NCBI RefSeq assembly: GCF_013280595.1
Contig: NZ_JAAATY010000042.1
Location: 1 to 64,000 of the forward strand
Source: Kibdelosporangium persicum
GTDB lineage: Bacteria > Actinomycetota > Actinomycetes > Mycobacteriales > Pseudonocardiaceae
Reading direction: 5' to 3'
Length of the DNA: 64,000 nt
Shown: positions 3,081 to 59,238 of the stretch, piece by piece
How positions within the stretch are numbered: the stretch's first letter is position 1
How the letters are laid out: each line of letters begins with the position of its first letter
Notes under the pieces: generated by a model
Told to the model about the DNA's origin: nothing
Database searches by the model: none
Seen by the model: only the letters and a program-made list of their open reading frames with translations
Made by a program: the position numbers and the translations under genes

Positions 3081-3086
3081 GCGGGA

Positions 3087-3605: not shown

Positions 3606-3615
3606 CCTGGATGAA

Positions 3616-5150: not shown

Positions 5151-5169
5151 ATGTGCTAGCTTCCGGTGA

Positions 5170-17547: not shown

Positions 17548-17548
17548 C

Positions 17549-18277
17549 ATGACCAACGCCTTCGCCGCATTCGGCCGCAACGACCTGCGTGGCGTCGGTC
17601 GCGATACCCTGCTGGCCGGCATGTTCCTCGCACCGCTGGTCTGGATCGCCATGGTCCGGTTCGCCACCCCACCGGTCACCCGCCTACTGGCTGAGAACCA
17701 GGTCGACCTGAGGCCGTACTACCCACTGATCCTCGTCGGCTTCCTGTTGCTCACCAGCGCGATCATCGTCGGCGGCGTCACCGCGCTGATCGTGCTGGAA
17801 GAGCGGGACGCCAACACCCTGGCCGCGGTGCGGATCACCCCGGCGTCCCTGGGCCGCTACATCGGCTACCGGGCGATCATCGCCGTCCTCCTCACGACGG
17901 TCTACGTCATCGGCACGATCACCGCCAGCGGCCTGTTCCCCGCCCGTCACCTACCCGCGCTGATCCCGATCGGCCTGCTGACCGGCTTGTCCGCGCTCGT
18001 GATCGCACTGGCCATCCTGGCCGTCGCCAAGAACAAGGTCGAAGGGATCGCCGCGATCCGCGCACTGGGCATCGTCGTCGCCGGACTGCCCCTGCTGCCC
18101 GCGTTCATCGATTCGAACTGGCAGCTGGCCTTCGGAGTGCTGCCCACCTACTGGCCCGCCCAAGCGTTCCTGACCGCGAGCGACGGCGGCACGTGGTGGC
18201 CGTACCTCATCGGAGGCATCGCCTACCACGCACTCGTCGTGTGGCCGCTGTACCGCCGCTTCATCCGCGCGCGTTAG
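17549..18277 (+). CDS. ABC transporter permease, subunit 2
   Basis: A 242-residue ABC-2 permease with six predicted helices; the conserved cytoplasmic element is '[28 protein letters not shown]'. It starts one base after the first permease ends, so the three genes form one operon. The end of the gene is overlapped antisense by the unterminated reading frame of the neighbouring epimerase gene. Confidence 0.85.
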
Positions 18278-20289: not shown

Positions 20290-20314
20290 CCGCGTTCATC
20301 CTTCCGGCCGGCTT

Positions 20315-39758: not shown

Positions 39759-40319
39759 TCAGTGCCAGACACTCCCGGCTGTCTCGGCGGCGCACATCAC
39801 GTCCACCAACTGCCGCAACTCCGCCAAGCATTCGAGCACAGTGGTGTGGTCCGTGCGCAGGTGCAGTTCGGCAGCATCCGGCGGTTCGTACGGGTCGTCG
39901 ATCCCGGTCAGTCCCCGCAGCTCGCCGCGGCGTGCCTTGGCGTACAGGCCTTTGACGTCGCGGTGCGCACACACCTCGACCGGGGCGTCCACCCACACTT
40001 CCGCATAACGCAGACCGGCGTCGATGTGCAGCTGCCGGACCCATTGGCGGGCGGATCGGTACGGCGCGATCACCGGGACCACCACGACAACTCCATGCGC
40101 GGCCAGCATCGCCGCGAGCCGACCGGCACGGCGGACGTTCTCGATCCGGTCCGCCCGTGAGAAACCCAGCTCGGGGAAGAAGTCCTTGCGCAGCAGATCA
40201 CCGTCCAGCACCTCGGCCCGGTGGCCCAGCCGCGCGGCCAGCTCAGTGGCCAGTGTGGACTTCCCTGAGCTGGGCAGCCCGGTGAACCACAGCGTGCAGC
40301 CCGTCCGCATGCCGCTCAC
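39759..40319 (-). CDS. cysC: Adenylylsulfate kinase (APS kinase)
   Basis: A 186-residue APS kinase. The P-loop is 'FTGLPSSGKSTLA' (G14-T22), followed by 'VLDGDLLRKDFFPELGFSRADRIENVRR', 'VIAPYRSAR' and 'VDAPVEVCAHRDVKGLYAKARRGEL', all typical of CysC. It makes PAPS from APS and ATP. It overlaps the exporter gene upstream by 4 bases (GTGA), and a sulfotransferase lies at 60.5 kb, so it probably supplies sulfate donor for the NRPS product rather than for assimilation; no CysD/N/H genes are near. Confidence 0.9.
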   Translation of the reverse strand: MSGMRTGCTLWFTGLPSSGKSTLATELAARLGHRAEVLDGDLLRKDFFPELGFSRADRIENVRRAGRLAAMLAAHGVVVVVPVIAPYRSARQWVRQLHIDAGLRYAEVWVDAPVEVCAHRDVKGLYAKARRGELRGLTGIDDPYEPPDAAELHLRTDHTTVLECLAELRQLVDVMCAAETAGSVWH

Positions 40320-41609: not shown

Positions 41610-43367
41610 TCAGTGGAGGCCGGAGAGTTTCCGCCCGACCTCGTCGTTGTCCATTGTGGATAGACGAGCGCGCAGCAGCCGCTCGACGTGTGCCGCCTGG
41701 CCCGCGACCGTGGGATGGGTGAAGAGGTCGGCCACCGAGACGGTCAGTCCGAAGACGGCCTCGAACTGGAAGGCGAGCTTGGCCACGGTCAGCGAATGGC
41801 CGCCGAGCGCGAACAGGTCGTCGTCCGACCGGACCGGGTCGTGGCCGAGTTCCCGCCACAGGTCGGCGATCTGCTCCTCGATCGCCCCGGTCGGTGGCCG
41901 GGTGGCCGGCTCGGCCGAACGCCGCTGATCCGGCCCGGAGCCGGCTGCCGGGCCGATGCCGGTCGGCGCGGGCAACTCACTCAGTGGCAGGTCCGGTTGC
42001 GCGACCGCCGCGGCCAGACACGCCTGGAATGCCCTGGCCAGACTGGCAACGGTGTCGCGGTCGATGATTTCGTCGTCGTACGCCCAGTGCACGGTCATCG
42101 CCGCGCCATCGCGGACGACCTTGACCTCCAGGTCGTTCTGGGACACCGCGAGCCCCAGGTCGACCTCGCTGACGACCAGCCCAGGGAACGGAGGAACCGA
42201 CGATTCCGTTGGCTCGTAGGAGAAGACGACGTTGAGAAACGACATCGGCCGGGCCAGCCGGCGCGCCAGCAGCGCGTAGGGAAGGTCTTGGTGATCGTAC
42301 GCCTCGACGACGGATTCCCTTTCGCCCGCCAGAAACCGGCGTACGGTCAGCGTGTCGTCGACAGGATGGCGCAGTACCACCATGTTGATCAGAAAACCGA
42401 TGAGCGCCTGCGTCTCCGGACGGGTCCGGCCGGTCATCGGTGTGCCGACGAGCACGTCCCGCTCCCCTGTGCCGCGCCACAGGACGACCCGCAGGACGGC
42501 GAGCAACAGCATGAACGGTGTGACGCGTTCGATCTGGGCCAGCCCGAGCACTCCGGCGGACTGATCGGTGGTCAGTGGCGTGGCGAGGAACTCACCTCGA
42601 GTGGTACGCAACCGCGGCCGCGGCCGGGATCCCGGCAAGGTCAGCGGCCGAGGCGGCTCGGCCAGCCTGGCGTCCCAATAGGACAGCAGGCTCTCCAGTC
42701 GCTCGCCGGTGAGGTACTTCCGTTGCCACACAGCGAAGTCCGGGTACTGGACGGCGAGTTCGGGCAGGACGGCGGGTGTCCCGGTCACCTCGGACCGGTA
42801 CAGCTCAGCCAGTTCGGCCAGGAACACGGCGTCCGACGAGGCATCGACGAGGATGTGGTGCCGTGCGACAAGCACGAACGTGTCGTCGGCCGCGCGGCGG
42901 TACACCCTCGTGCGCAGCATCGGACCGGTGCGCACGTCGAATCCTTTGGCCAACTCCTGGCGCGCCTGCTCAGCACATTCCTCTTCGCTGTGTCCCAAGA
43001 GGTCGACCACCGCGAAGTCCATGAACGGCGGTGGATGGACCTCCTGCATCGGCTCGCCGTCGACCATCGCGAAGGTCGTCCGCAACGCTTCGTGCCTGCC
43101 GATCAGGGCCGTGACCGCACGCCGCAGCGCCTCGGTGTCGACGGCGCCCTTGGCTCGCAGGAACAACGGCGCGGCGCCGACGACGGACGGGCCCAACAGC
43201 TGATCGACCAGCCACATCTGTTCCTGGGCATAAGACTGGGGAACGAAGACCTGGTCCGCGGACCGCGGCCGGAGAACCGGCGCCCCGGAACCGGACTCGG
43301 CACGGCCCGCCCGCATCTGGTCGACGAGAAGCCTACGTTCGGCCGACAGACGTCCCATCTGAACCAT
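41610..43367 (-). CDS. NRPS didomain: condensation-carrier (C-T)
   Basis: A 585-residue protein. The condensation domain spans ~40-480 with an intact active-site motif 'VARHHILVDASSD' (H170, H171, D175; the usual Gly is Ala). A carrier domain at ~495-570 has 'DDLFALGGHSLTVAKLAF' with the phosphopantetheine Ser at ~528. There is no adenylation domain, so the carrier must be loaded in trans, for example by one of the free-standing A domains. GAGGA precedes the ATG. It is cotranscribed with the exporter and cysC, and its promoter region carries a 12-base element shared with the SARP gene. Confidence 0.88.
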   Translation of the reverse strand: MVQMGRLSAERRLLVDQMRAGRAESGSGAPVLRPRSADQVFVPQSYAQEQMWLVDQLLGPSVVGAAPLFLRAKGAVDTEALRRAVTALIGRHEALRTTFAMVDGEPMQEVHPPPFMDFAVVDLLGHSEEECAEQARQELAKGFDVRTGPMLRTRVYRRAADDTFVLVARHHILVDASSDAVFLAELAELYRSEVTGTPAVLPELAVQYPDFAVWQRKYLTGERLESLLSYWDARLAEPPRPLTLPGSRPRPRLRTTRGEFLATPLTTDQSAGVLGLAQIERVTPFMLLLAVLRVVLWRGTGERDVLVGTPMTGRTRPETQALIGFLINMVVLRHPVDDTLTVRRFLAGERESVVEAYDHQDLPYALLARRLARPMSFLNVVFSYEPTESSVPPFPGLVVSEVDLGLAVSQNDLEVKVVRDGAAMTVHWAYDDEIIDRDTVASLARAFQACLAAAVAQPDLPLSELPAPTGIGPAAGSGPDQRRSAEPATRPPTGAIEEQIADLWRELGHDPVRSDDDLFALGGHSLTVAKLAFQFEAVFGLTVSVADLFTHPTVAGQAAHVERLLRARLSTMDNDEVGRKLSGLH

Positions 43368-45499: not shown

Positions 45500-46288
45500 T
45501 CACTCCGCACGCCACCGCGGGTCACGTTTCTCGACGAACGCCCGCGGTCCCTCTTCGGCGTCCCGGCTGCGCATCCGGATGTCCTCCCAGGGGTACCGAG
45601 TCGTGAACGCCTGCGCCAGCGGCAGGTGCGCCGACGCCGCGGCGGCTTGCTTGATCGCCCGCACGGCCAGCGGAGCGCACCTCAGGATGTCGGTGACCCA
45701 GCCGGCCACGGCGGCGTCCAGTTCCTCTGCCGGAACGACTTCGTTGACCAGACCCAGGTCGTACGCCCGGCCGGCGCTCAACGACCGGCCGGTGATCAGG
45801 TGCCCGATGGCTGTCCGGTACGGCAACTGCCTGGTCAACCGGAAAACCCCGCCGGCGCCCGCGATCAGGCCAAGACGTGCCTCGGGCAGAGCGAACGTGG
45901 CGTCCGCCGAGGCGACGATGACATCGCAGGCCAGGGCGAGCTCGAACCCGCCGCCGAGCGCGTATCCGTTGACCCTGGCCACAACCGGCTTGGACAAGTC
46001 GAACCGCTCGGTCAGGCGTGGCCAGCCCGGCTTGCCGCGGCTGCCGAAGCTGGCGGCCGGGGTCCCGTTGCGGACCAGTTCCTTCAGGTCCTGCCCTACC
46101 GAGAAGGCACGGTCACCGGCCCCGGTCAGAACCGCCACCCACACGTCGTCGTCCCGCTCGAAGTCGTCCCAGATCTCCGCCAGTTCCTCGTGAGTACGCA
46201 AATCCATGGCGTTCAGCACGTGCGGGCGCGACAGCGTGACGTACCCGACTCGGTCCCGTTTCTCGTAACGGACACGCTTTTCAGCCAC
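45500..46288 (-). CDS. dpgD: DpgD: enoyl-CoA hydratase/isomerase of the dihydroxyphenylglycine pathway
   Basis: A 262-residue crotonase-fold protein: '[14 protein letters not shown]' and '[42 protein letters not shown]' form the oxyanion hole and carry the acidic residue. DpgD helps turn the cyclised tetraketide-CoA into 3,5-dihydroxyphenylacetyl-CoA together with DpgA and DpgB. The GTG at 46288 gives an 8-base overlap with dpgC; the longer open frame upstream is antisense noise within dpgC. It is the last gene of the operon. Confidence 0.9.
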
Positions 46289-47609
46289 GTTCACCGTCCG
46301 CCTGGGACTGGAGGGCGAACCGTGCGGTCTTGGCAAGCACGTCCGCGTCGTGGATCCGCAACGCCTGGGCGAGCGCGAACTCCGCGAGGTACTCGCGGAA
46401 TCTGTCGCCGGGTTCGGCCGCGAGCCGGAGCATCCGGCGATTGGCCACCACCGCGGGGCCGTTGAGCCGTCGCACACCCGATTCGATCGCGGCCCGCATG
46501 TCCTGGGGTTCCACGACTTCGTCGCAGAACAACCCGCCATCGGGTTCCTGCGCGTGAATCGTGCGGCCACCGAGAACGAGCTGCCGCGGCAACCGTCCCC
46601 AGCCGGACCGGGCCAGCCGCAGGTTGGCCAGGCCGGGGATGATTCCCTCGTTCGCGGCGGGCAGGCTGAAGAAGGCCCGTGACTCGGCGATGACGTGGTC
46701 GACGACCAGCAGCAGCTGCGCGCCACCGCCGATGGCGAACGAGTCGACCGCGGCGATCCACGGCTTCTCCAGTGCCGGCCGCGGCCAGGTGTCCGCCACC
46801 AGACCGCGAGCGATCTTGTTGAGCGGACCGAGTTCACGGCGGAGCAGGAAGTCCACAAAGGATATCCGGCCCGCGTTGAGGTGCTTGAGGTTGATGCCCG
46901 CGCTGAACACCCGCTTGCCCGCATGCCGGGGATGCGACATCTCGCCGCCGCGCAGGACCCCGACGCCGACCTCGTCGTCCAGCAGCACGAGGTCCACCGC
47001 TGTCTCCAGGTCTTCGGTGAGCCTGTTGTCCTCGGCGTTGAGGGTGTGGTGGTTGCGGAAAGTCACGTGCGCGGCGGCGTCGTGGCGCTCGATCAGGACC
47101 GTGCCCAGATCGAGCCGGCCGAAGCACTGGAAGTCGGCGAGCAGCGCCAGTGCCCGGGGCGTGGGCTTGCGCATCACGTCAACGAGATGCCGCCCCGGGC
47201 CTGGTGCCGCGAGCACGGCACGGAAGAAGATCGCCTGGTCGATCTCCCTGCCTTCCTTGCCCGCCTGGTCATGTCCGGCCTCCGCGGCCATCTGCGCGCG
47301 TGTCGGCACCAGGCCGGGAAAGGCATCGGCCACCGCGAAAACCAGCTCGGCCAACCGGAGATCGGCTGTCCTGCCGTCGGTCACGGTGTCGTACACGACC
47401 GTCGCATGGGCTTGCAGGAACCGGGCGCGTGCGGCACGGCAAGAGTGATGGATCCGATCGGCGCGATCCTGCTCCTGACGGCCGCGGCTGGGTTTGGCCG
47501 CCAGACCGGCCAGCAGTTCCTCCCCGGTGGTGACATGTCTCGTCAACGCGGTCAGGTCGGCGGTCAGCTCGCCGGTCACAGCAGGCTGGGCGAGGATCGT
47601 GTCGTCCAT
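46281..47609 (-). CDS. dpgC: DpgC: 3,5-dihydroxyphenylacetyl-CoA 1,2-dioxygenase
   Basis: A ~442-residue cofactor-free dioxygenase, far longer than ordinary crotonases. The N-terminal ~190 residues are a DpgC-specific helical domain; the crotonase core then shows '[19 protein letters not shown]', '[20 protein letters not shown]', '[45 protein letters not shown]' as in the balhimycin and vancomycin enzymes. It converts 3,5-dihydroxyphenylacetyl-CoA with O2 to 3,5-dihydroxyphenylglyoxylate. The ATG at 47609 gives a 4-base gap after dpgB; an upstream in-frame start at 47648 would overlap dpgB. Confidence 0.93.
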
Positions 47610-47613
47610 CGCG

Positions 47614-48300
47614 TCAGTCCGGACGGGTCTGTCGCAATGCCCGGTCACAGGCCGCGAGATGAGCGCCGAGGGCGTCCTCGAAGCTCATCGTCGCGGCGTC
47701 GAGCAGCAACCTGCGGCGTACCGCCACGTCCACGCCCGCGTCGCCACTGAGCGCCGCCGACCTGGTCCGCACCGCCTCGACCGCCGCGTCGCGATCGTCC
47801 ACGAGTTCGTCGACCAGGCCGACCTCGAGCGCCCGCTGCGCGGAGAACGACTGCTCGAACAACAGCACAGCCCGGGACCGGGCCACCCCGAGCTGGTTGG
47901 CCAGCCGGTACAGGGCCATGCCCGGCCATGAGCCACCCGGACCGACCGGCACCGCCAAGCGCAGGTCACGCAGCCCGATCCGGTAGTCACCGGCGAGCAG
48001 CAGTTCCAGTGCCGGGCCGCCGCAGTTCCCGCCCGCCACGGCGATCGACGCCGGACCGAGCCGCTCCACCCGCCGCAACGCCTGCTCCCATTTGCCGACC
48101 AGGTGCACGTTCACCTCGCCGGGCCACGGCCGTCCGGCGCCGGGCTGGTCGGTGCCGTTGACGCGGAGCACCGCGACCAGACCGGCAGCGAGGTCCTCGA
48201 CGCGGTCGCAGAACGCGTGCACTGCCGCCACCAGTTCAGGCGACAGCGACACGTCACTGTCCACGTCGAGGACGAACTCGGTGTCCATGCCGAGTGTCAC
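47614..48300 (-). CDS. dpgB: DpgB: enoyl-CoA hydratase-like partner of DpgA
   Basis: A 228-residue crotonase-like protein: 'VAGGNCGGPALELLLAGDYRIGLRDLRLAVPVGPGGSWPGMALYRLANQLG' marks the core. DpgB increases DpgA turnover and dehydrates the cyclised intermediate. The GTG at 48300 or the ATG at 48288 may be the start. It is 42 bases after dpgA and just before dpgC, in the conserved dpgABCD order. Confidence 0.9.
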   Translation of the reverse strand: MTLGMDTEFVLDVDSDVSLSPELVAAVHAFCDRVEDLAAGLVAVLRVNGTDQPGAGRPWPGEVNVHLVGKWEQALRRVERLGPASIAVAGGNCGGPALELLLAGDYRIGLRDLRLAVPVGPGGSWPGMALYRLANQLGVARSRAVLLFEQSFSAQRALEVGLVDELVDDRDAAVEAVRTRSAALSGDAGVDVAVRRRLLLDAATMSFEDALGAHLAACDRALRQTRPD

Positions 48301-48342: not shown

Positions 48343-49455
48343 TCAATAGCGCACCAGCGCGGCTTCGATCGTCGATCCGGGGCCCATCGTCAGGAAGACC
48401 CCGTGATCCCCTTCGTTGATCGCGCCCTCTTCGAGCAGCCGTTCGTAGGAGAACAGGAAAGATCCGCTGGAGAGGTTGCCGAAGTCCTCGAGGACGCCGA
48501 CCGTGTGGCGCACGTCGTGCCGGCTCAGCCCGAGGTTCACCACCATCGAGTCGATGACTTTCCGGCCGCCGGAATGGATGGTCCAGTGCCGGATGTCGCT
48601 GCGCCGCAGGCCCGTGCCGTCCAGCAGCCGGTTGACGATTCCCTCGGCGTTCGAGCCGACCACGTAGGGAATGTCCCGGTCCAGGAAGAAACTCAGCTTC
48701 CCGTGGTCGTCGTCCCAGTCGAACCGCATCGCCTCGATGGCGTCGGGAATGAGGCAGCTGGCGAATTTCAGGATGGTGGCGCCGGGACCGGTGCGCTCCG
48801 GCCCGGCGACCAGGGCGACCGCCGCCGCCCCGTCGCCGAACAAGCTGTTCACCACGGCCGTGCGCATGGTTCCGTCGACCACGTACGCCGCTGAGCAGGC
48901 CTCGATGCACACCATGACGGCCACCTGGCCCGGGTGGGCGCGGGCCCACGAGGCGACCGCGCTCAGCCCGTTCAGCCCGGCGTTGCACCCCATTCCCACG
49001 ATGTCGATGCGGCCGCAACCGTGCCAGAGACCAAGTTCGCGGATCAGCAACGCGCTGAATCCGGGAGTCAGAAACCCGGTCGACGAGACACAGCACAGGT
49101 ACTGCACCGCGTCGAGGGTGAGTTCCGCGTCCTTCAGGCAGGCCTGAAGGGCCCTGGCGCCCATGTCGATACCGGAGTCGCGGTGTTTCCTGACCAGTTC
49201 TCCCTGGGTCTCCACATACCTCGTGCCGTCCGGTCCCGCACCGGGCAGGTTCAGATACCGGCGTTTGATCGCACTGTTGTGGAATACCGAACGGATCCGT
49301 TCGTCGTCGATCCGGTAGATGTCCAGCAACTCGTCCTGGGTGTAGGAGAACGCCGGAACCGCCGTGCCGACTCCGCGTATTCGCGGGGCCGTTGTCACCG
49401 CTGTGCCGTGACTGTCCACAACCACCCCTCGGCTCGATGGCGATGACACAGGCAC
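48343..49455 (-). CDS. dpgA: DpgA: type III polyketide synthase (3,5-dihydroxyphenylacetyl-CoA synthase)
   Basis: A 370-residue chalcone-synthase-fold enzyme. The catalytic Cys is in 'DIVGMGCNAGLNGL', the His in 'HWTIHSGGRKVID' and the Asn in 'DFGNLSSGSFLFS'. N-terminal 'RIRGVGTAVPAFSYTQDELL' is family-typical. DpgA condenses four malonyl-CoA units. It is not a chalcone synthase because the DpgBCD genes follow in order. The GTG start at 49455 shares a base with the stop of the upstream oxygenase gene (TAGTG), so translation is coupled. Confidence 0.95.
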   Translation of the reverse strand: MPVSSPSSRGVVVDSHGTAVTTAPRIRGVGTAVPAFSYTQDELLDIYRIDDERIRSVFHNSAIKRRYLNLPGAGPDGTRYVETQGELVRKHRDSGIDMGARALQACLKDAELTLDAVQYLCCVSSTGFLTPGFSALLIRELGLWHGCGRIDIVGMGCNAGLNGLSAVASWARAHPGQVAVMVCIEACSAAYVVDGTMRTAVVNSLFGDGAAAVALVAGPERTGPGATILKFASCLIPDAIEAMRFDWDDDHGKLSFFLDRDIPYVVGSNAEGIVNRLLDGTGLRRSDIRHWTIHSGGRKVIDSMVVNLGLSRHDVRHTVGVLEDFGNLSSGSFLFSYERLLEEGAINEGDHGVFLTMGPGSTIEAALVRY

Positions 49456-50222
49456 TAGCTGAACATGGCTTCCATGGTCTCGTGGGTCTGCGTCTTGAGC
49501 CGGTCGGACTCGCTGCCCCAGCAGGTGTTGAGGATGATCCGCGTCTTCTCCTCGTTGAGCGGGACCGTCCGGTGCAGCGTGGTGTCCGAACGCAGGAAGT
49601 ACAGGTCACCGGTCTGATGCGCGTACGTCTTGATCGGGTGGTTCACGAGGTACTCGTGTACCCGCGGGTTCTCCTTGTCCCAGTCGGTGTGCGGTACGCA
49701 CTGCAACATGCCGCCGTACTCGAGCGCGGGCGCCTCGATGATCCAGATGACGGTGAACGAGAAGTCACCCCAGTGCCAGCCGTGCGTGTCGCCCTTCTTG
49801 TGCTGGCGGATGATGACGTACTTCTCGTCCTCCCACGGGCACTCGACCACCGGCTGGGCGGCCACCTGCGACAGGAAGCCGGTCAGCACCTCCGACTGGT
49901 ACACCGCCGGGATGAGGTGGCCGTCCTCGGCGATGGACTTCTGGCTGACGGTGCTCATGTACCTCGGCGAGCTGCCGGTCTCCTTCATCAGCAGGTCGAT
50001 CCGCCGGGCGTGCAGGTCGATCAGGCTGTAGACCTCGTCGGACACCTGCCTGAACAGGTCCTCCGGCACCAGGCCGGTGAGCTTGACGTAGCCCTCACGG
50101 CGGAAGTGCTGGGACAACGCGCGGACCGAGTTCGGATCGCGGTAGCGCTCGGCGATGTGCTCGGCGAGCCGGTCGTCGAGCTGGCTGGGTGTAATGGATT
50201 GCACGGACAACGTTGCCTCCAC
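49455..50222 (-). CDS. Putative Fe(II)/2OG amino-acid halogenase (BesD-like, HxG metal motif)
   Basis: A 255-residue 2OG/Fe(II)-fold protein. The first metal motif is 'THGWHWGDFSF', with H150-W151-G152: Gly stands where hydroxylases have the iron-binding Asp. The distal His is H217 in 'TTLHRTVPL' and the 2OG-binding Arg is probably R228 in 'KTRIILN'. A Gly or Ala here opens a chloride site on iron in radical halogenases. From memory, BesD uses H137, G139 and H204, the same 67-residue spacing and a similar length (~250 aa). D153, one residue further on, is unlikely to be a ligand. It is the first gene of the dpg operon. A hydroxylase with an unusual motif remains possible. Confidence 0.7.
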   Translation of the reverse strand: MEATLSVQSITPSQLDDRLAEHIAERYRDPNSVRALSQHFRREGYVKLTGLVPEDLFRQVSDEVYSLIDLHARRIDLLMKETGSSPRYMSTVSQKSIAEDGHLIPAVYQSEVLTGFLSQVAAQPVVECPWEDEKYVIIRQHKKGDTHGWHWGDFSFTVIWIIEAPALEYGGMLQCVPHTDWDKENPRVHEYLVNHPIKTYAHQTGDLYFLRSDTTLHRTVPLNEEKTRIILNTCWGSESDRLKTQTHETMEAMFS

Positions 50223-50519: not shown

Positions 50520-53500
50520 GTGACACCAGTGATCGTCTCCGGAACCTCGTACGGCCCGGAAGCACCCGCCACGGTGTTGCCTGCGCAGCTGGAGACCTGG
50601 TTCGCCGAACAGCTGGCCGGGACTACCGCGGTTTTCCACCGCGGCAAGGCTTTCCGGTTCCTCGGCCGGGTCGACGCCGACCGCCTCGCCGCGGCGATGA
50701 CCCACGTCATGCGCAGGCATGAGGCGCTGCGGACGACGTTCGAGAGCGTGGACGGAGTCCCCCTGCCGCGCCGGTCCGACCTGAGGGCCGACGTCGTGGT
50801 GGTGGACACGGACGGGCTCACCGACCGGCAACGTGCCGCGTTGGCCCGTGCCCAGGTGTCGCACCCGTTCGACTTACCGCACGGTCCGCTGGTACGAATC
50901 CGGCTGTACCGGTCCGGCCCCGAGGACCATCTCCTTGTCCTTGTCGCGCATTCGATGGTGTGCGATCTCGAATCCCTCGACATCGTGCTGGCCGATCTGT
51001 GCGCCGCCTACACGTCGGCCTCTCCCGGGCTTGTCCGTCTGCCGGCTCCGGCCGGGCCGTCCTGGTCGGCGGCCGCGGCCGCGACCCGGGAATGGCTCGG
51101 CACCGGCGCGGCACTGGATTCGCTGTCGTACTGGCTGGCCCGGCTGGCCGGCGTGCCCGATCGGGTGGCGTGGCCACGGGCCCGGCCCGGTGGTCAGGCC
51201 GTCACCGTGTGCCGTCCGGTCGGCCCCGGCCTCGCGGCAGGCGTGGCCGGCCTGGCCGCACGGCACGGGACGACGTCGCAGACGGTACTGCTCACCGCGC
51301 TCCGGGTGCTGCTGAGTCGGTACACCGGTCAGCCGGACCTGCTCATCGCGACGCCGATGACCATGCGCACCGACCAGACGGCCGGTGTCGTGGGTCAGCT
51401 GGGCAATCTGGTGGTGCTGCGCAACGACCTCCGCGAGAATCCGAGCTTCGCCGAAGGGCTCGCGGACGAGCACCACGGCAGCAGCCGCGTGGGGCAGGCC
51501 GGGAAGTTCCCGTTCGCGTTGCTGGCCACTGCCCTGAAACCCAGCACCAGCCCGGCGTCCGGCTCCGTCGTGCAGGTCCACTTCCACGACGAGCCCGCGC
51601 CTTCGGCGGGCCCGGCATGGCCCGGCGTGCGGGTTGACCAGGTCGCCCTGGACCTGCCGACAACGATGTGCGATCTGTCCCTGACCGCACGCACGCATCA
51701 CGACGGCACAGTCCGGGAACTGGTCTGGGCGAGCGCCACCGGCGAACTCGACGACGTGAGTGTGCGCGATCTCGCCGACCGGTTCGTGATCCTGCTTCAG
51801 GACGCGATCACCAACCCGGAGAAGCGAGTCGCCGAGCTGCGTGTGCTCTCCCCACGCGACGAGAGGGCGCTCGACCGGTACAGCAGCCCGGCCCCGTTGC
51901 CGGTGCCGGAGCAGGCGACACTGAGCCTGATCGACCTGGTGTACCACTGGGTCGGCCGTTCCCCGGACACCGTGGCGATCCGCTGCGGCACGGATGCCTT
52001 GACGTATCACGAGTTCGGTGCGCTGAGCAAACACATCGCCCAGCGAATCACCGACCTGCGCCTGCCACTGGAGACCCGGGTGGGGGTGTTGCTCAGCCGA
52101 AGTGCGGAACTTCCGGCCGTGTTGCTCGGGGTGGCGCAGGCAGGCTGCACGGTCGTGCCGCTCGATCCCACGCACCCACCAGACCGGCTGGCCTATGTGC
52201 TGCGCGACTCGGGCGCCCGGGTGCTGATCACCGACGGCATCGTGGACGGGCTGGTCATCGACGACAGCGTCCGGGTGCTGCCGTTGGCCGCGCTGCGCAC
52301 CGGGATCACCGAGTCTGTCGACGGACCCATCACCTGGCCGGCGGATCTGCTCGACCGGGCGGCATATGTGCTGTACACGTCCGGCTCGACCGGGACGCCC
52401 AAAGGCATCGCGGTGACGCACCGAGGTCTGGCGAACTGTCTGCTGGCCACCCGTGAACTGCTCGGTTTCCAGCCCGGGCAGAGCCTGCTCGCGGTCACCA
52501 CGATCTCGTTCGACATCGCCACGCTGGAGCTCTACCTTCCGCTGATCTCCGGCGGCCAGACGGTCGTCGCGGGCTCGTCGGCCGCCCGCGACGGCGACGC
52601 GCTCAAGGACCTGCTTGCGGCGGTCAGGCCGGACTTCATGCAAGCCACGCCGATGACCTGGCAGATGCTGTTCCTGTGCGGCTGGCCCGGCGACCCTGAC
52701 CTGGTCGCGCACGTCGGTGGCGACCTCGTCACGCCGGAACTCGCGGCGCGGCTGACCGCCTGCACCAAAGCCATGTGGCACACGTACGGGCCGACCGAGG
52801 CGTCGATGTACATGGCCTGCGAACCTGTGCCGCGAGGACCACAGCCACCAGTCCTGCCCATCGGCAGGCCGATCGGGGGCGCCGGTGTCCTCATCGTCGA
52901 CCGGTGGCTGCAGCCGGTGCCGCCGGGAACCGTGGGGGAACTCTGCATTCGCGGGGTGTGCCTGGCTCGCGGCTATCCCAGCATGCCGGGCTTCACCGCG
53001 ACACGGTTCATCCCGGACCCGTTGCGCCCCGGCGAGCGCGTCTACCGCACCGGTGACCTCGCCATGCTGCGCCCGGACGGCCGCATCGAGTTGCGTGGAC
53101 GCAACGACCGTCAGGTCAAGATCCGAGGACACCGCGCGGAGCCGGGCGAGGTCGAGACGATTCTCGGCAGGCACCCCGACGTGGCCATGGCCGCGGTGGT
53201 CATTTCGGGAACCGGTTCGGACAGCTACCGGATCGTCGCCTACCTCCAGCCCACGGAAGAGGCCGGCGAGTCCGTTGTGGACAACGTGAGGGAGTACGCG
53301 AGCCGCCTGCTGCCCGCGTTCCTGGTCCCGTCCTCCTATGTCGTGGTGAAGTCCATGCCCCTCAACCCGAACGGGAAGACCGACCGGGCCGTGCTCGCCC
53401 GGTTGTCGGCCTGGCCTCCCGCGGTCGACCACAGGCCTCGACGGCAGAGCCGGGAGGAGGAGTGGGTCACCACCACGTGGTCGGCCGTGCTCGGTACCGC

Positions 53501-54197
53501 CGAGGTGTCGGCCGCGAGCTTCTTCCGGCAGGGCGGTGACCTGGTGCGGGCCGCCAAAGTCGTGGCACGGGCCAAGCAGGAGCTCGGGATCGACCTCGCG
53601 CTGGAGACAGTGGTGGAATCGCCGACCATCCCGGCGCTGGCGCGCCGCATCCGGTGCGCCATGGTGCGTGGCGGCAGCCCTCGCGCGGACGTCACGAGTT
53701 CGTGGCTGGCCGAGTCCGCGGGCCGCCTGCCGCCGCTGGTGTTGCTGACCCGGCCGGACGATCCTTCGGACTACACCGGCCTCGCGGCGGCCTTGGAGCC
53801 CGGCCGCGGAATGTGCCGGATCGACGTACCCGACGAACACGGTCTAACCACCCGGGAACAGTTGTCAGGCCTGCTGACCGTGATCGGGTCCGACTCGGTC
53901 GTGCTCGCCGGACGCGGCGACGGCGGCAGGCCCGTGCTGCGCACGGCCTGTGCGCTGTACCAGGAAACCGGACTGCTGCCGCCGGTGCTGGTCCTCGGTG
54001 GCGCACCGCCCGACCGTGACGCGGTCGCGGGCTACCGGGGCTCGGTGTACTGGGTCGCCGACGTCCATTCGATCCGGACGACCGGCCGCGACCTCGGCCG
54101 CAGACCGTCGGTTGTCGCCCTTCCCGGCGGCCCCGAGGAGCTCTTGGGCGACGCGAACTGCACCCGTGTCGCGGGGGTCGTCGCCAGCATGACCTGA
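50520..54197 (+). CDS. NRPS C-A-T-TE-like protein with degenerate C, T and TE motifs
   Basis: A 1225-residue protein. The condensation domain (~15-450) reads 'LVAHSMVCDLESLD': catalytic HHxxxDG is HSxxxDL (H144, S145, D149, L150), so the second His is lost. The adenylation domain (~470-1000) is intact: 'LYTSGSTGTPKG', 'TYGPTEAS', 'YRTGDL' and 'NPNGKTDR'. By manual alignment its code is D-I-L-Q-H-G-T-M-Y-K, closest to glycine (DILQLGLIWK). The carrier motif reads 'FFRQGGDLVRAA': the phosphopantetheine Ser is Leu. The C-terminal ~150 residues look like a shortened thioesterase with 'LAGRGDGGRP' for GHSxGG. Only the A domain appears functional; it probably loads a carrier in trans. GTG start; GGAAAG lies immediately upstream. 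Confidence 0.85.
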   Translation: MTPVIVSGTSYGPEAPATVLPAQLETWFAEQLAGTTAVFHRGKAFRFLGRVDADRLAAAMTHVMRRHEALRTTFESVDGVPLPRRSDLRADVVVVDTDGLTDRQRAALARAQVSHPFDLPHGPLVRIRLYRSGPEDHLLVLVAHSMVCDLESLDIVLADLCAAYTSASPGLVRLPAPAGPSWSAAAAATREWLGTGAALDSLSYWLARLAGVPDRVAWPRARPGGQAVTVCRPVGPGLAAGVAGLAARHGTTSQTVLLTALRVLLSRYTGQPDLLIATPMTMRTDQTAGVVGQLGNLVVLRNDLRENPSFAEGLADEHHGSSRVGQAGKFPFALLATALKPSTSPASGSVVQVHFHDEPAPSAGPAWPGVRVDQVALDLPTTMCDLSLTARTHHDGTVRELVWASATGELDDVSVRDLADRFVILLQDAITNPEKRVAELRVLSPRDERALDRYSSPAPLPVPEQATLSLIDLVYHWVGRSPDTVAIRCGTDALTYHEFGALSKHIAQRITDLRLPLETRVGVLLSRSAELPAVLLGVAQAGCTVVPLDPTHPPDRLAYVLRDSGARVLITDGIVDGLVIDDSVRVLPLAALRTGITESVDGPITWPADLLDRAAYVLYTSGSTGTPKGIAVTHRGLANCLLATRELLGFQPGQSLLAVTTISFDIATLELYLPLISGGQTVVAGSSAARDGDALKDLLAAVRPDFMQATPMTWQMLFLCGWPGDPDLVAHVGGDLVTPELAARLTACTKAMWHTYGPTEASMYMACEPVPRGPQPPVLPIGRPIGGAGVLIVDRWLQPVPPGTVGELCIRGVCLARGYPSMPGFTATRFIPDPLRPGERVYRTGDLAMLRPDGRIELRGRNDRQVKIRGHRAEPGEVETILGRHPDVAMAAVVISGTGSDSYRIVAYLQPTEEAGESVVDNVREYASRLLPAFLVPSSYVVVKSMPLNPNGKTDRAVLARLSAWPPAVDHRPRRQSREEEWVTTTWSAVLGTAEVSAASFFRQGGDLVRAAKVVARAKQELGIDLALETVVESPTIPALARRIRCAMVRGGSPRADVTSSWLAESAGRLPPLVLLTRPDDPSDYTGLAAALEPGRGMCRIDVPDEHGLTTREQLSGLLTVIGSDSVVLAGRGDGGRPVLRTACALYQETGLLPPVLVLGGAPPDRDAVAGYRGSVYWVADVHSIRTTGRDLGRRPSVVALPGGPEELLGDANCTRVAGVVASMT

Positions 54198-54211: not shown

Positions 54212-55660
54212 ATGACCGACGACCTGTTGACCCGTTTCCTCGCCCTGTCCCCCGCTGACCGCCGCCAGTTGCTGTCCGGCGACGCCGGTCCGACCGGCCC
54301 GCGAGCCAGCCAGATCCCCGCGGCCCCGCGTGGACCATGGCCCGTCCGCTTGCCTGTCTCGCCCGGCCAGCAAGCACAGTGGATGATGTGGCGGATGGCG
54401 CCGGACAGCGTCACGTACCACGTGCCCGCGTGTTACGAGATCACCGGCCCGTTGGTGCCAGCACTGCTGATCAAGGCCGTCAACGCGGTCGTGGCCCGTC
54501 ACGAGATCATGCGCACCACGTACGCCCAGGAAGGCGTGCGGGTGATGCAGGTGATCCACCGGGATCTGCCCGCCGACGTGCGGATTGGCACGGCGGGTTC
54601 GCGCGAGGAGGCAGTGGCGCTCGCGGCCGTGGCCGCCCGTGAGCCGTTCGACCTGCGTAACGGTCCCCTCGTACGGGTTCGGCTGTGGCGTTTCGCGCCG
54701 CGACGGCACTTGCTGCTGCTCTTGCTGCATCACATCACCGTCGACGAGCGTTCGTCGCGAATCCTGGAGCGCGAGCTCGCCGTCTATTACCGCGCCGCGG
54801 TGTGCGAACAGCCGGCGGCGCTTCCGCCGTTGCCGGTGCAGTACGGCGACTACGCGGTCTGGCAGCGCACCCTGGACTCGGACGCCGACCTGGTTTACTG
54901 GAGTAAACAGCTACGCGGCGCGAAGGACATGCGGCTGCCATCCGATCATCCGTGGCCTGCCGTGAGCACGTTGCCGGGCGCGACCGTGCAACTGCCGCTA
55001 CCCCATGGCCGGGAGGCACTGGCCGACCTGTCCGCCCGGCTCGGTGGCACGCCCTTCACCGCGCTGGCCGCGGCGTTCGCCGTGTTCCTCGCCGGGGAGA
55101 CCGGGACGGACGACGTCTTGTTCGGCTGCCCCGTGGCCTGCCGCACCGACAGCGCGATCGCCGAGTTGATCGGATACTTCATGAACTCCGTGGTGTTGCG
55201 GATTCGTACGGCGCCGTCAGTGACCTTCGCCGAGCTGGCGACCGAGGCCCGTGATGTGGTCGGTGGCGCGCTACGCCATCAGGCCGCGCAGTTCCACGAC
55301 GTCGTCACCGCGGTCGGTGCCAAACCGGGCGCGTTCCACAATCCCTTGTTCGACGCCATGCTCGTGTTCCTGTCGGGCGACCAGACCGGCCACCACGCCT
55401 CGCTCGCGCCGGATCTGCCGATGCGGCCGGTCATCCTGCCCATGCCCAACGCGCACCGGTACATCACCTTCACCGTTGTGGAGGAGCCTTCGGCCGCGAC
55501 GCTGACCGTGCATTACCCGAGCGAGGCCTACACGAGCAGCACCGTCGAACGCTGGGCAGGGCGGCTCAGCCGTGTCATCGCCCGCGCCGCGGCCGAGCCC
55601 ACGAAGACGGTCGCCGACTTGGTCTCCTCGCCGGGGACCCTTGAGCACACCGGTCGATAA
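54212..55660 (+). CDS. Free-standing NRPS condensation domain
   Basis: A 482-residue protein consisting of one condensation domain. An N-terminal ~25-residue segment ('DDLLTRFLALSPADRRQLLSG') resembles a docking helix, and the domain runs from ~40 to 475 with motif 'LLLHHITVDERSSR' (H173, H174, D178; Gly replaced by Glu), likely active. There is no A or T domain. It would join intermediates held on separate carriers, for example the C-T and A-T proteins. It starts 14 bases after the preceding NRPS gene, in the same operon. Confidence 0.88.
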   Translation: MTDDLLTRFLALSPADRRQLLSGDAGPTGPRASQIPAAPRGPWPVRLPVSPGQQAQWMMWRMAPDSVTYHVPACYEITGPLVPALLIKAVNAVVARHEIMRTTYAQEGVRVMQVIHRDLPADVRIGTAGSREEAVALAAVAAREPFDLRNGPLVRVRLWRFAPRRHLLLLLLHHITVDERSSRILERELAVYYRAAVCEQPAALPPLPVQYGDYAVWQRTLDSDADLVYWSKQLRGAKDMRLPSDHPWPAVSTLPGATVQLPLPHGREALADLSARLGGTPFTALAAAFAVFLAGETGTDDVLFGCPVACRTDSAIAELIGYFMNSVVLRIRTAPSVTFAELATEARDVVGGALRHQAAQFHDVVTAVGAKPGAFHNPLFDAMLVFLSGDQTGHHASLAPDLPMRPVILPMPNAHRYITFTVVEEPSAATLTVHYPSEAYTSSTVERWAGRLSRVIARAAAEPTKTVADLVSSPGTLEHTGR

Positions 55661-55684: not shown

Positions 55685-55714
55685 TTTGACGGCAGAGGTG
55701 TGCAGGGAGATGCC

Positions 55715-56551
55715 ATGCTGCAGGACGGTGCACCACCAGACCAGGGCCGAGGCACCACGGTGAGAACCCTCGGCCAGTTCAGCGTCGTCATCAACGGCAT
55801 CAGGATCGAGCGCTGGCGCGCGGGCCGGGCCCGCCAGTTGTTCCAGTGCCTGCTGACCGAGGCGGGAAAGCCGGTGTCCAAGGCGACCCTGATCGACTCG
55901 GTCTGGGGGGATTCGACCGCCCGGTCCCCTGACGTCTCCCTCAAGGTGGCCGTCTACCACCTGCGTAACCTGATCACCGACGCACATCGCCGCGGCCACG
56001 GCAGCGGGCGGCCCCAGTTGTGGATCGACCTGCACCGCAACGGTTACTCGTTGACCGCGAGCGAGGCCGTGATCGACGTCGACGATTTCGAACGCGCACT
56101 CGACGCCGGCGCTCGTGCGGCGAAGGCGGGCCGTGAACGCGAGGTCCGCAGGCACTACCGCACCGCCGTCGATCTCTACACCGGCTCCTATCTGCCGGAA
56201 TGCCAGGACGTCTGGGCGATGGTGCGCCGTGAGCAACTGAAGGACCGCCTGCTCGGCGCCATCGACGAGCTGACCCTGCTGGCACGGCGGGACGGCGACC
56301 GGACCGTCATGCCCGAGCTGCACCAACGGATGCTGCAGATCGATCCGTGCCGCGAGGAGAGCTACCGGGAGCTGATGCGCTGGCACGCCGGGGCGAACCA
56401 GCCGTCACGCGTGATGCACTGGTACTTCACCTGCGCCAACCAGCTGCGCACCCAACTCGGCATCGAGCCCGACCGCAGCACCAGGCAGCTGTTCTACGAC
56501 GCCGTCCGTGGCGATCTCGCCGCCAGGACCGGTGGGCCGGCCGAGCGATGA
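55715..56551 (+). CDS. SARP-family transcriptional activator
   Basis: A 278-residue activator: an OmpR-type winged helix at ~10-105 ('TVRTLGQFSVVINGIRIERWRAGRARQLFQCLLTEAGKPVSKATLIDSVWGD', 'HRNGYSLTA') and the BTAD domain at ~110-265 ('DVDDFERALDAGARAAKAGREREVRRHYRTAVDLYTGSYLPECQD'). SARPs switch on antibiotic clusters by binding direct repeats near -35. The ATG at 55715 follows an AGGGAG site; a GTG at 55700 is in frame. It overlaps the A-T gene by 4 bases (ATGA), so activator and biosynthetic genes are translated together. Confidence 0.92.
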   Translation: MLQDGAPPDQGRGTTVRTLGQFSVVINGIRIERWRAGRARQLFQCLLTEAGKPVSKATLIDSVWGDSTARSPDVSLKVAVYHLRNLITDAHRRGHGSGRPQLWIDLHRNGYSLTASEAVIDVDDFERALDAGARAAKAGREREVRRHYRTAVDLYTGSYLPECQDVWAMVRREQLKDRLLGAIDELTLLARRDGDRTVMPELHQRMLQIDPCREESYRELMRWHAGANQPSRVMHWYFTCANQLRTQLGIEPDRSTRQLFYDAVRGDLAARTGGPAER

Positions 56552-58278
56552 ACGGCTATCGAGGCGCGCGGCGGCTGATCGACGCCGTCGAACTGGCGGC
56601 GACTGACACACCGGACGCGGTGGCCGTCACCGCGCCGGACGGAACCTTCACCTTCGCCGAGGTGCTCACCCGGGCCCGGCAGCTGAGCGGCGCCCTCGCC
56701 GACGTGCGCGGCGAGGAGTCGGTAGGACTCTACCTCGGCCGCTCGCGGCACATGGTGCCCGGCCTGCTCGCGGTGTGGCTGGCCGGCGCGTCAGCCGTCC
56801 TGATGGACCCGGCCCACCCGGCCGAACGCATGAAGTTCCTGCGGGAGGACGCCAACCTGCGGCTGGTCGTCGCCGAGCGGCCGCCCGACGGATTGGCCCC
56901 GACCACAACGCTCATCAGCCCGGACGCCACCGGCCCGCTCTCGGCACGTCGCCCTGTCCATCCGGAGAACCGCGCTTACCTTGTGTACACCTCCGGCACG
57001 ACCGGTCGGCCGAAGGGCGTCGAGACCAGCTACCGGAACCTCGACACGTTCCTGGACGCGCTGGCCCTGCTCCGGCTGGAGCGTGGCGGGCTCGGTCTCA
57101 ACGCGGTGTCCCCCGCCTTCGACGGCTGGCTCTGGTGCACGTTGCTGTACCTGTTGCACGGCAAGGGTGTCGCGATCGTCGACCCGGCAGGCGACCAGAG
57201 CCTGGACGCCACGCTCGCGACACTCCGGACCGACACCGTGAGCCTGACCCCATCGCTGCTGGCCACCTTGAAGGCACCGCTGCCGACGACCAAAGTCCTT
57301 GTCGTCGCGGGTGAAGCGTGCCCACCGGCGATGGCACGGCGATGGCAGGCCGGCCGTCGCCTTCTCAATGTGTACGGCCCGAGCGAAACGACGATCGCGG
57401 CAACCTGGGCGGACACCGCCGCCGGGGACGACCCCACCACGATCGGCCGGCCGATGCCGGGCTACCGCGGGTACGTGCTGGACGAACGGCTCGAACCGGT
57501 GGCCGCCGACGAGATCGGTGAGCTGTACGTCTCGGGCCCGGCGGTCGCCCGTGGCTACCGCAACCGCCCCGGCCTGACGGCGAGCCGGTTCCTGCCGGAC
57601 CCGTTCGCCACGGGGAGCCGGATGTACCGCACCGGCGATCTGGTGCGGCTCGACGAGCACGGACGGCTGCATTTCCTCGGCCGGGCCGACAACCAGGTCA
57701 AGCTGCGAGGTTTCCGGGTCGAGCTCGGCGAAGTCGAGCGAGTGGCCGCCCAGGTGGCCGGGGTCGCCGCGACGGCCTGTTTCGTCGCGACGGCGGGGGA
57801 TGTGCTGGGGCTGGCGTTCGTGGCCTTGGCCGGCCATGATCCAGCCGTTGTCGCGAAAGCGATCCGTGCACGCTGTGCGGAACTCCTGCCCGACTTCATG
57901 TGCCCGGCCACAGTGGACGAGGTCCCCGCGCTGCCGACCGCCCACACCGGCAAAGTCGACCGGACCGCGTTGGCCAGGGCACTGGCGTACTCGGATTCGG
58001 GACGGTCACCCGGCGACGGCCGCCCGCCGAGCACTGCGCGAGAACACCAGGTGTGCGAGGTGTGGGCCAACCACCTCGGCAGGCCGGTGACGGACGTCGA
58101 CGGGAACTTCTTCGAACTCGGCGGCCATTCCCTGCTCGCCGCCCGTGCGGTCGCCGAACTGCGGCGCAGGACCGGCCTGCCGGTGTCAGCCCGTCACCTG
58201 CTGTCGAACCCCACAGCCGCGGATCTCGCCGGCGAGTTGGACCGTCTTGCCGCACAACACGAGATGTCCGCGCCATGA
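56548..58278 (+). CDS. NRPS didomain: adenylation-carrier (A-T), aromatic amino acid predicted
   Basis: A 576-residue protein. The A domain (~10-490) has 'YLVYTSGTTGRPKG' (147-157), 'VYGPSETTI', 'YRTGDLVR' and 'THTGKVDRTAL'; the carrier has 'FFELGGHSLLAARAVAEL' with Ser ~528. By manual alignment the specificity code is D-G-W-S-V-A-V-I-A-K, which resembles the DxWxVAxVxK codes of Phe and especially Trp domains; I am unsure. It overlaps the type II TE gene by 4 bases, with MbtH and P450 genes next: an amino acid is probably held on this carrier, beta-hydroxylated, then released or passed on. Confidence 0.87.
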   Translation: MNGYRGARRLIDAVELAATDTPDAVAVTAPDGTFTFAEVLTRARQLSGALADVRGEESVGLYLGRSRHMVPGLLAVWLAGASAVLMDPAHPAERMKFLREDANLRLVVAERPPDGLAPTTTLISPDATGPLSARRPVHPENRAYLVYTSGTTGRPKGVETSYRNLDTFLDALALLRLERGGLGLNAVSPAFDGWLWCTLLYLLHGKGVAIVDPAGDQSLDATLATLRTDTVSLTPSLLATLKAPLPTTKVLVVAGEACPPAMARRWQAGRRLLNVYGPSETTIAATWADTAAGDDPTTIGRPMPGYRGYVLDERLEPVAADEIGELYVSGPAVARGYRNRPGLTASRFLPDPFATGSRMYRTGDLVRLDEHGRLHFLGRADNQVKLRGFRVELGEVERVAAQVAGVAATACFVATAGDVLGLAFVALAGHDPAVVAKAIRARCAELLPDFMCPATVDEVPALPTAHTGKVDRTALARALAYSDSGRSPGDGRPPSTAREHQVCEVWANHLGRPVTDVDGNFFELGGHSLLAARAVAELRRRTGLPVSARHLLSNPTAADLAGELDRLAAQHEMSAP

Positions 58279-59045
58279 CCGGCTCGTATCTGGTGTCCTG
58301 GCAGCCCGACGATCCCGGTCGGCCACTACTGCTGTGCTTGCCGCCCGCGGGTGCGGGCGCCGGGCAGTTCCGGGTGTGGCAACAGCGATTCGGTCCGGTG
58401 GTGCAGGTCGTCGGGGTGCAGCTGCCGGGCCGGGAATCACGCTGGCCGGAACCCCATCCGTCCTCTGTGGACGCCATGGTCGGCGACGTGCTCACGGAAC
58501 TGCTGCCAAGGCTGCCTGCCGGACGCGGCCTCACGGTCTACGGGCACAGCTTCGGCGGGCTGCTCGGCTACGAGATCGTCCGTGCCCTCGGCGACCGGCA
58601 CGGGCTTCGGCCCACGGCACTGGTCGTGGCCGCCTGCCGGCCACCGCACATGTGGGTGGACGCCGGGCACACCTTGCTCGACGACGTGCAAGAGGTGAGC
58701 CGGCTGCTCGAAGCGCGCCCGGGCATGGCCGACATCGAGGAGGAGGACCGTGAGCTCTGGCTCGACCTGCTGCGCAAGGACGCCGTGTTGTCGCTGTCCT
58801 TCACCGGCCCCGGTGACGTTCCACTGAGCTGTCCCATCCTGGCCTGGGCCGGGGACGAGGACAGCATCGCCGACGCCGGGCAACTCGACGGCTGGGGCGG
58901 CTACACGGCGAGCACGTTCCACCGCACCACGTTCGCCGGGAACCACTACTTTCCCGACACCCAGCTCGATCTGATCCTTGACCGGCTCGGCGAGCTCGCC
59001 GGAGGGCCGGCGCTGACCGAGGGAGCACGAGACCGCAGTGGCTGA
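58275..59045 (+). CDS. Type II thioesterase
   Basis: A 256-residue alpha/beta hydrolase of the TEII group: 'LLLCLPPAGAGAGQFRVWQQRFG', 'VVGVQLPGRESRW', the nucleophile elbow 'VYGHSFGGLLGYEIV' (S92), Asp in 'AGDEDSIAD' and His in 'FAGNHYFPDTQ'. It hydrolyses acyl or aminoacyl groups from carrier proteins; here it may release the modified amino acid from the A-T protein or clean misloaded carriers. It overlaps MbtH by 8 bases. Confidence 0.9.
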   Translation: MTGSYLVSWQPDDPGRPLLLCLPPAGAGAGQFRVWQQRFGPVVQVVGVQLPGRESRWPEPHPSSVDAMVGDVLTELLPRLPAGRGLTVYGHSFGGLLGYEIVRALGDRHGLRPTALVVAACRPPHMWVDAGHTLLDDVQEVSRLLEARPGMADIEEEDRELWLDLLRKDAVLSLSFTGPGDVPLSCPILAWAGDEDSIADAGQLDGWGGYTASTFHRTTFAGNHYFPDTQLDLILDRLGELAGGPALTEGARDRSG

Positions 59046-59238
59046 CAAGGCTTTCGACGAGTGGACGGTCCTGATCAACGACGAGCAGCAGTACGCCCTC
59101 CACCCGGCCGGACACGGTCCGCCGCCGGGCTGGCGCCCGGCCGGATTCACCGGGTCCGAGGCTGACTGCGTGCGGCACGTCGACGAGCACTGGACCGACA
59201 TGCGGCCGCTGAGCCTCCGCAAGGCCATGGACGGCTGA
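59038..59238 (+). CDS. MbtH-like protein
   Basis: A 66-residue protein with the full MbtH signature: 'DEWTVLINDEQQYALHP', 'PPPGWRPAGFTGSEADCVRHVDEHWTDMRPLSLR', with the conserved Trp residues. MbtH proteins bind adenylation domains and are needed for their folding and activity. It probably serves the A domain encoded just upstream and perhaps others in the cluster. The GTG start at 59038 is used. Confidence 0.93.
   Translation: MADKAFDEWTVLINDEQQYALHPAGHGPPPGWRPAGFTGSEADCVRHVDEHWTDMRPLSLRKAMDG

Follow-up and report, generated by a model that had tools for sequence, protein, structure and literature searches.

We analysed a stretch of 64,000 nucleotides from Kibdelosporangium persicum (positions 1 to 64,000 of contig NZ_JAAATY010000042.1, in the following called the window), which is part of a contig of 79,607 bases (C42). 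The window contains hal, a gene for a putative Fe(II)/2-oxoglutarate (2OG) radical halogenase, whose product we call Hal. It is directly followed on the same strand by the four adjacent genes dpgA, dpgB, dpgC and dpgD of 3,5-dihydroxyphenylglycine (Dpg) formation, all of which score above their NCBIfam equivalog cut-offs (Table 1). Gene order and scores thus confirm the initial annotation, according to which hal heads a dpgABCD operon. Genes for nonribosomal peptide synthetase (NRPS) proteins run divergently from hal.

The stop codon TAG of hal and the first GTG of dpgA overlap by one G (TAGTG), four bases separate the dpgB stop from the dpgC ATG (47609), and the dpgD GTG (46288) overlaps the dpgC stop. 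Given these close junctions, the five genes probably form one transcript. The translational coupling of hal and dpgA that had been claimed is a possibility: it agrees with the one-base overlap, but a later dpgA GTG at 49419 provides a second reading. This codon has GAGGGG five bases upstream and lies nearer to the start of the DpgA model (residue 26); with it, 35 bases would separate dpgA from hal. For hal itself the start candidates are GTG at 50222, TTG at 50210 and GTG at 50204.

The core motif of the Hal protein, GDTHGWHWGDFSF, carries H147, H150, G152 and D153 in the order G144-D-T-H147-G-W-H150-W-G152-D153-F. The distal His is H217, which follows H150 at a distance of 67 residues, a spacing equal to that in the aligned BesD of S. 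cattleya. Open reading frame (ORF) and alignment therefore bear out the HxG motif and the BesD-like spacing that had been noticed before. A 2026 preprint (PMC12871659) likewise regards HxG/A as diagnostic of halogenases of this kind.

With 340.5 bits on the Pfam HalD model PF23169 (cut-off 26), which found no match in 14 control genomes, Hal belongs to this family. Among the PDB sequences it matched HalB best (E 7e-118), followed by HalD (7e-75), HalA (2e-67), BesD (1e-65) and a lysine hydroxylase (2e-55). Identities were 66% to HalB (247 columns), 46% to HalD, 44-48% to HalA and 43% to the lysine hydroxylase; for BesD we obtained 41% over the 251-column ORF segment and 47% over the best 210 residues. 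On the BesD equivalog model NF042920 (L-lysine 4-chlorinase, cut-off 450 bits) the S. cattleya BesD segment scores 462.5 bits. Hal reaches 255.7 bits and is therefore not BesD itself.

A quick maximum-likelihood tree was built from 90 rows, with the Shimodaira-Hasegawa-like approximate likelihood ratio test (SH-aLRT) as support and no bootstrap. In it, Hal falls into a 24-row clade with SwHalB (SH-aLRT 91), its position within this clade being unresolved. The rows nearest to Hal by path are from Streptosporangiaceae, and BesD, HalA and HalD sit in other clades. The PDB row of SwHalB is identical to the protein of a Streptomyces wuyuanensis locus (L049). In the same comparison, HxG family members of five Legionella species (L093, L098, L103, L107, L117) form a single well-supported clade. 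Taken from the sequence, it is strongly supported that Hal is a BesD-family halogenase and a member of the HalB clade. The earlier wording "BesD-type radical halogenase" holds for the family, as confirmed by clade and determinant residues, but not for the closest enzyme, which is HalB, the BesD equivalog cut-off being missed.

Hal shares with SwHalB (PDB 7u6i, 7u6j; an L-lysine 5-chlorinase) the clade, the metal-site residues and the residues next to them. Unlike the hal locus, that of SwHalB has no match to dpg or NRPS queries within 10 kb per side. With BesD of Streptantibioticus cattleyicolor (L-lysine 4-chlorinase), Hal has the family, HxG and the 67-residue His spacing in common but not the clade, and the BesD pathway yields an alkyne amino acid according to PMC8407142. 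HalA (entries 9oer, 7jsd and 9oet comprise HalA and the lysine hydroxylase) shares the fold and three determinant residues with Hal.

These determinants bear on the question of halogenation or hydroxylation. In the alignment the hydroxylase reads H-W-D-D whereas the halogenases read H-W-G-D, such that G152 occupies the column of the hydroxylase Asp ligand. D153, whose placement as metal ligand would have contradicted the initial annotation, pairs with the second Asp, common to halogenases and hydroxylase, and is for this reason rejected as a ligand. G152, I159 and N232 of Hal match HalB, HalD, HalA and BesD; their counterparts in hydroxylase 7jsd are D, N and V. At these very positions, according to PMC13244439, the triple change D142G/N149I/V223N (Hydrox-3R) turns the hydroxylase into a halogenase with 84% chlorination selectivity.

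For a wider view, genome contigs of 84,980 species were scanned with an alignment of Hal and HalB and the patterns DTHGWHW and HETM[EN]AM, and the best 80 of 199 relatives were kept. An earlier scan by a single protein, in which the automatic peptide patterns performed poorly, had given 59 stretches and no confirmed relative. In total 102 loci were tried, of which one was the window itself, four (L002-L005) had no match and 97 others could be compared. HxG was found in 80 and HxD in 17 of these 97 loci; since most loci, including the best 80, were picked by closeness to the query, this share is not a family-wide figure. The G/I/N triple is present in 77 of the 80 HxG loci, and all 25 HalB-like loci (L041-L063, L096, L116) carry HxG. 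One cyanobacterial HxG relative (L090 10001-10621) has Gly in the column of the distal His, which reflects either an alignment error at this spot or a metal site that is broken.

The initial annotation had also proposed a structural comparison with BesD and with lysine hydroxylases. An AlphaFold2 model of Hal built from 29 aligned rows reached a mean pLDDT (predicted local distance difference test) of 90.9 and a pTM (predicted template modelling score) of 0.89. The model contains the double-stranded beta-helix fold of the BesD-type family, which the hydroxylase has as well. It superimposes at 0.9-1.0 Å on three of four chains of HalB with glycine or lysine, with a template modelling (TM) score of 0.95 by query length, the fourth chain (7u6i_B) giving 6.0 Å. 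For lysine-bound HalB (7u6j) the values are 1.0 Å and 0.95. HalD with ornithine follows at 1.4 Å, HalA with lysine, variants included, at 1.1-1.7 Å and BesD at 1.1-1.3 Å; 9oet gives 3.8-4.0 Å. The fold itself is thus neutral, and it is the alignment, from which the ligand geometry in Hal was also taken, that gives the halogenase-type residues.

What the enzyme might act on is suggested by its kin. HalB is termed an L-lysine 5-chlorinase in PMC10187165. The review PMC8407142 gives chloro-, bromo- and azido-lysine as the product range of SwHalB, reports that other members accept ornithine (HalD) or Leu, Ile and norleucine (PrHalE), and describes BesD as a cryptic halogenase. As the lysine enzyme HalB is the nearest relative, L-lysine is the most likely substrate of Hal by analogy; C5 as the chlorination site is a guess by kinship. 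By kinship the substrate would be a free basic aliphatic amino acid, so that hal probably serves the NRPS that also uses Dpg and does not modify an intermediate of the Dpg pathway.

Taken together, we consider it likely that a HalB-clade halogenase is co-transcribed with dpgABCD as a single precursor-supply operon for the divergent NRPS. Fe(II) would be bound by H150 and H217, with chloride filling the site vacated at G152. With 2OG and O2 a chloro-ferryl species would form. The substrate would be a free basic aliphatic amino acid, most likely L-lysine; one of its unactivated carbons, possibly C5 as in SwHalB, would lose a hydrogen to this species before the chlorine rebounds. In this way hal would supply chloro-lysine or a near analogue, while DpgABCD would supply 3,5-dihydroxyphenylglyoxylate, which an aminotransferase would convert to Dpg. 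Both precursors would then be taken up by the divergent NRPS cluster.

Several observations weigh against this scheme. The hydroxylase 7jsd superimposes on the Hal model at 1.1-1.2 Å in three of four chains (3.0 Å in the fourth), which is about as good as BesD, so that the fold names the family and not the reaction. The Asp-to-Gly change alone is insufficient for efficient halogenation, as stated in PMC13244439. The equivalents of I159 and N232 also occur in 6 and 14 of the 17 HxD loci, respectively, such that only the Gly itself separates the two classes. In the tree the row of HalA is sister to that of the lysine hydroxylase; the HxG/HxD switch therefore occurred within the family. The neighbourhoods of HalB-clade genes differ between loci and hence do not fix the substrate. 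On the entire contig C42 there is no class I/II aminotransferase (PF00155; none of 41 genome matches), so that Dpg formation needs a gene located elsewhere. Finally, the adenylation-domain pockets, for which residues were picked by motif and positions follow GrsA numbering, contain no code equal to one known to us for Dpg or lysine and allow no confident assignment.

Table 1. Genes of the hal-dpg operon and of the surrounding NRPS region in the window. C, condensation; A, adenylation; T, thiolation domain; PKS, polyketide synthase.
Feature	Position	Strand	Basis and remarks
hal, putative HalB-clade Fe(II)/2OG radical halogenase	49455..50222	-	255 aa, GTG start; H150, G152, H217 at predicted metal site
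dpgA, 3,5-dihydroxyphenylacetyl-CoA synthase (type III PKS)	48343..49455 (start 49455 or 49419)	-	NF042429 611 bits, cut-off 425
dpgB, enoyl-CoA hydratase	47614..48300	-	NF042431 240 bits, cut-off 140
dpgC, (3,5-dihydroxyphenyl)acetyl-CoA 1,2-dioxygenase	46281..47609 (longer ORF to 47648)	-	NF042432 570 bits, cut-off 530
dpgD, enoyl-CoA hydratase	45500..46288	-	NF042430 462 bits, cut-off 400
C-T didomain NRPS protein	41610..43367	-	
Adenylylsulfate (APS) kinase	39759..40319	-	PF01583 181 bits
NRPS C-A-T protein, divergent from hal	50520..54197	+	Pfam; motif-picked pocket D-I-L-Q-H-G-T-M-Y
Stand-alone condensation domain	54212..55660	+	PF00668 244 bits
SARP-type regulator (Trans_reg_C and BTAD)	55700..56551	+	Pfam
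NRPS A-T protein	56548..58278 (start by eye from translation; ORF from 56347)	+	
ORF with stand-alone thioesterase	57900..59045	+	PF00975 100 bits; domain from residue 144
MbtH-like protein	59038..59238	+	PF03621 49 bits
Cytochrome P450	59251..60441	+	PF00067
Sulfotransferase	60472..61206	+	PF19798
NRPS, N-terminal thioesterase-like (hydrolase-like) domain, then C-A-T	61822..64000 (on to contig base 65796)	-	

To the left of the dpg genes lie the C-T protein, transporters and the APS kinase. The kinase is a possible source of 3'-phosphoadenylylsulfate (PAPS) for the sulfotransferase, and the presence of both genes suggests a sulfated product or a sulfate-driven ring closure. In the NRPS at 61822-65796 the thioesterase-like domain precedes the C-A-T domains, which is an unusual order. 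Past the window, C42 holds a second stand-alone C domain, two C-A-T proteins, a LuxR regulator, a second P450 and an A-T-reductase. At C42 67355-70165 (L023 7748-10558) an eroded A domain is found between intact C and T domains, of which only the last part matches AMP-binding, below the cut-off. The A-T-reductase protein at C42 76391-79606 (L023 16784-19999) suggests that the product ends in an aldehyde or alcohol, or that one of its building blocks is reduced.

The last bases of C42 (79443-79607) are identical to the first 165 bases of contig C46. This 165-bp element has inverted-repeat ends (TAGGTCGTGTTTC...GAAACACGACCTA), occurs at 86-100% identity in at least 40 places of the genome, several contig ends among them, and looks like a miniature inverted-repeat transposable element (MITE). 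In total 73 matches were found, the other 33 (71-73%) being the same kind of place on the opposite strand. As the element is a genome-wide repeat, the overlap proves nothing, and we rejected it as proof of adjacency. Fitting contig ends are the starts of C46, C55, C23 and C5 and, reversed, the ends of C2 and C38, the C38 copy being 43 bases short of the end. Two of these six contigs contain condensation domains, which begin 4.2 kb inside the break on C46 and lie at least 37 kb from it on C38. C46 is also the only fitting end with an identical full-length copy of the element. A continuation of C42 into C46 is plausible, C46 being a candidate only.

C46 carries two NRPS proteins and, in this order, genes for a flavin-dependent, Trp 6-halogenase-like enzyme (17447-19087, L202; E 1.4e-272 to 6ul2), a flavin reductase and a pyridoxal phosphate (PLP) aminotransferase (19670-20977). 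The latter is a candidate for the aminotransferase: it shows 48% identity over 285 residues to the PLP enzyme gene of another dpg locus and reached no NCBIfam equivalog cut-off. These genes may mark the opposite end of the hal-dpg cluster. An A domain beside a HalB homologue of Micromonospora solifontis (L055) has an acidic/aromatic pocket like that of the C46 NRPS at 2372-5671; the whole domains share 40% identity, others score higher, and we gave this likeness no weight.

We then asked how unusual the pairing of hal with dpg genes is. No dpgB or dpgC match (E 1e-8) occurs in the flanks of the best 80 of the 199 relatives, where flanks extended up to 10 kb per side and some contigs were far shorter; the only dpg-like matches there were a 25% DpgA match (L103) and DpgD-like matches (L109). 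Within the family set of 390 genomes, DpgA is found in 46 and a PF23169 protein (E <= 1e-40) in 12, the genome of the window alone having both. The class sample of 394 genomes contains DpgA in 11 and PF23169 in 7, with an overlap of two, the window's genome and G532. In G532 the two proteins are encoded on separate contigs and the PF23169 protein is of the HxD type. A weak PF23169 match in a further genome (G003), 57 kb from its dpgA, has no hal or dpg match at its locus (L198).

The dpgABCD loci of glycopeptide and other Dpg-using clusters offer the converse view. DpgA of 19 such loci is 56-73% identical to that of the window; none has a hal match (E 1e-15) within the 15-20 kb fetched, whereas hal heads the operon here, and none looks like the same cluster by the matches listed. 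Among plasmid records 36 Hal matches were found, none with at least 60% identity. The titles and abstracts listed by literature searches contain nothing on a BesD-type halogenase together with Dpg genes. Biffamycin is a peptide that contains chloro-Trp and hydroxy-Lys; neither Dpg nor dihydroxyphenylglycine is mentioned in the text of PMC13285481 that was consulted on it. The remark that no coupling of the BesD family to Dpg genes was known is thus upheld in the sets searched, and hal adds a member to an enzyme family already known, in a genetic setting that is new for it.

NRPS use itself is not odd for these enzymes, since NRPS domains occur in the fetched flanks of 6 of the 25 HalB-like loci. 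Other neighbours recur: among L041-L051, L058 and L063 a 325-aa epimerase-like gene is found near the HalB homologue in 11 loci, L049 included, and a 370-aa gene adjoins it in 10 loci, L049 not among these. Such recurring families suggest a native HalB pathway. In Actinoplanes aureus (L057) and Streptomyces iranensis (L060) the HalB-like gene is followed by similar gene rows, the genes being alike in length and start as judged by eye, with NRPS genes nearby; this looks like a shared uncharacterised pathway.

The base composition of hal differs from that of its operon. Its G+C content at third codon positions (GC3) is 0.95, the highest in the gene list (which misses a few genes), compared to 0.84-0.87 for dpgA-D. 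This value together with the Streptosporangiaceae kin suggests that hal was acquired singly into an existing Dpg operon. In the family set, 10 of the 12 strong PF23169 members carry HxD, HxG being present only in Hal and in one further protein (G183/L014), which groups with HalA.

The scheme of chloro-lysine supply has to be compared with other explanations. Hal could be a true halogenase whose chlorine is cryptic, being lost by cyclisation or elimination; the chlorine-free product would then contain an aziridine, an azetidine, a pyrrolidine or a residue with an unsaturated bond. The amines of 5-chloro-lysine are suitably placed for ring closure, and two P450s, the sulfotransferase and the APS kinase could tailor the product. 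The BesD pathway to an alkyne provides the precedent, as given in PMC8407142. Against it, no evident chlorine-removing enzyme appeared among the Pfam-scanned genes of the contig, the region left of 37309 being unscanned and no BesC search having been made. Overall we regard this outcome as rather unlikely.

Less probable is that Hal halogenates another free amino acid such as ornithine, leucine, isoleucine, norleucine or similar. HalD takes ornithine (PDB title and PMC8407142) and PrHalE takes Leu, Ile and norleucine (same review), but the lysine enzyme HalB is by far the nearest solved and named relative, with 66% identity and 1.0 Å to its lysine complex.

Still more doubtful appears a recent acquisition in which hal is expressed as the first gene of the dpg operon and has no role in this product. 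Its GC3, its Streptosporangiaceae kin and the grouping with HalA of the sole other HxG protein among the 12 strong family-set members are in line with this view. However, hal is intact, has kept the conserved family residues and is tightly packed with dpgA; moreover, clusters of this kind often contain acquired genes and usually make use of them.

That Hal is a hydroxylase or acts on an intermediate of the Dpg pathway, e.g. dihydroxyphenylacetyl-CoA, is highly improbable. Nothing but the location in one operon, the family's HxG/HxD switches and the fold common with the hydroxylase speaks for it, while G152, I159 and N232 are all of the halogenase type, all HalB-like loci carry HxG, the members described in the available part of PMC8407142 use free aliphatic amino acids and the Hal sequence is nearest to lysine-binding HalB.

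For the product of the cluster, a bolder reading, which we hold to be less likely than not, is an undescribed nonribosomal peptide that would join Dpg with a lysine made by the radical halogenase and either still chlorinated or closed to a ring. If C46 continues the contig, the Trp 6-halogenase-like enzyme would contribute chloro-Trp. Along with the A-T-reductase, the assembly line would use several C domains that stand alone and one module whose A domain is defective. If true, this would be, to our knowledge, the first enzyme of the BesD family to serve an NRPS that uses Dpg.

Enzymes of the BesD family introduce chlorine at unactivated carbons of free amino acids, but we know of few natural products in whose making they are used. 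The product of the K. persicum cluster may contain a chlorinated amino acid alongside Dpg. The gene-order link between a HalB relative and a Dpg NRPS indicates where to seek a peptide containing a chlorinated aliphatic residue, and Hal would be a further lysine-type halogenase for biocatalysis. For the evolution of the pathway, the locus presents a halogenase apparently gained as a single gene by an existing precursor operon.

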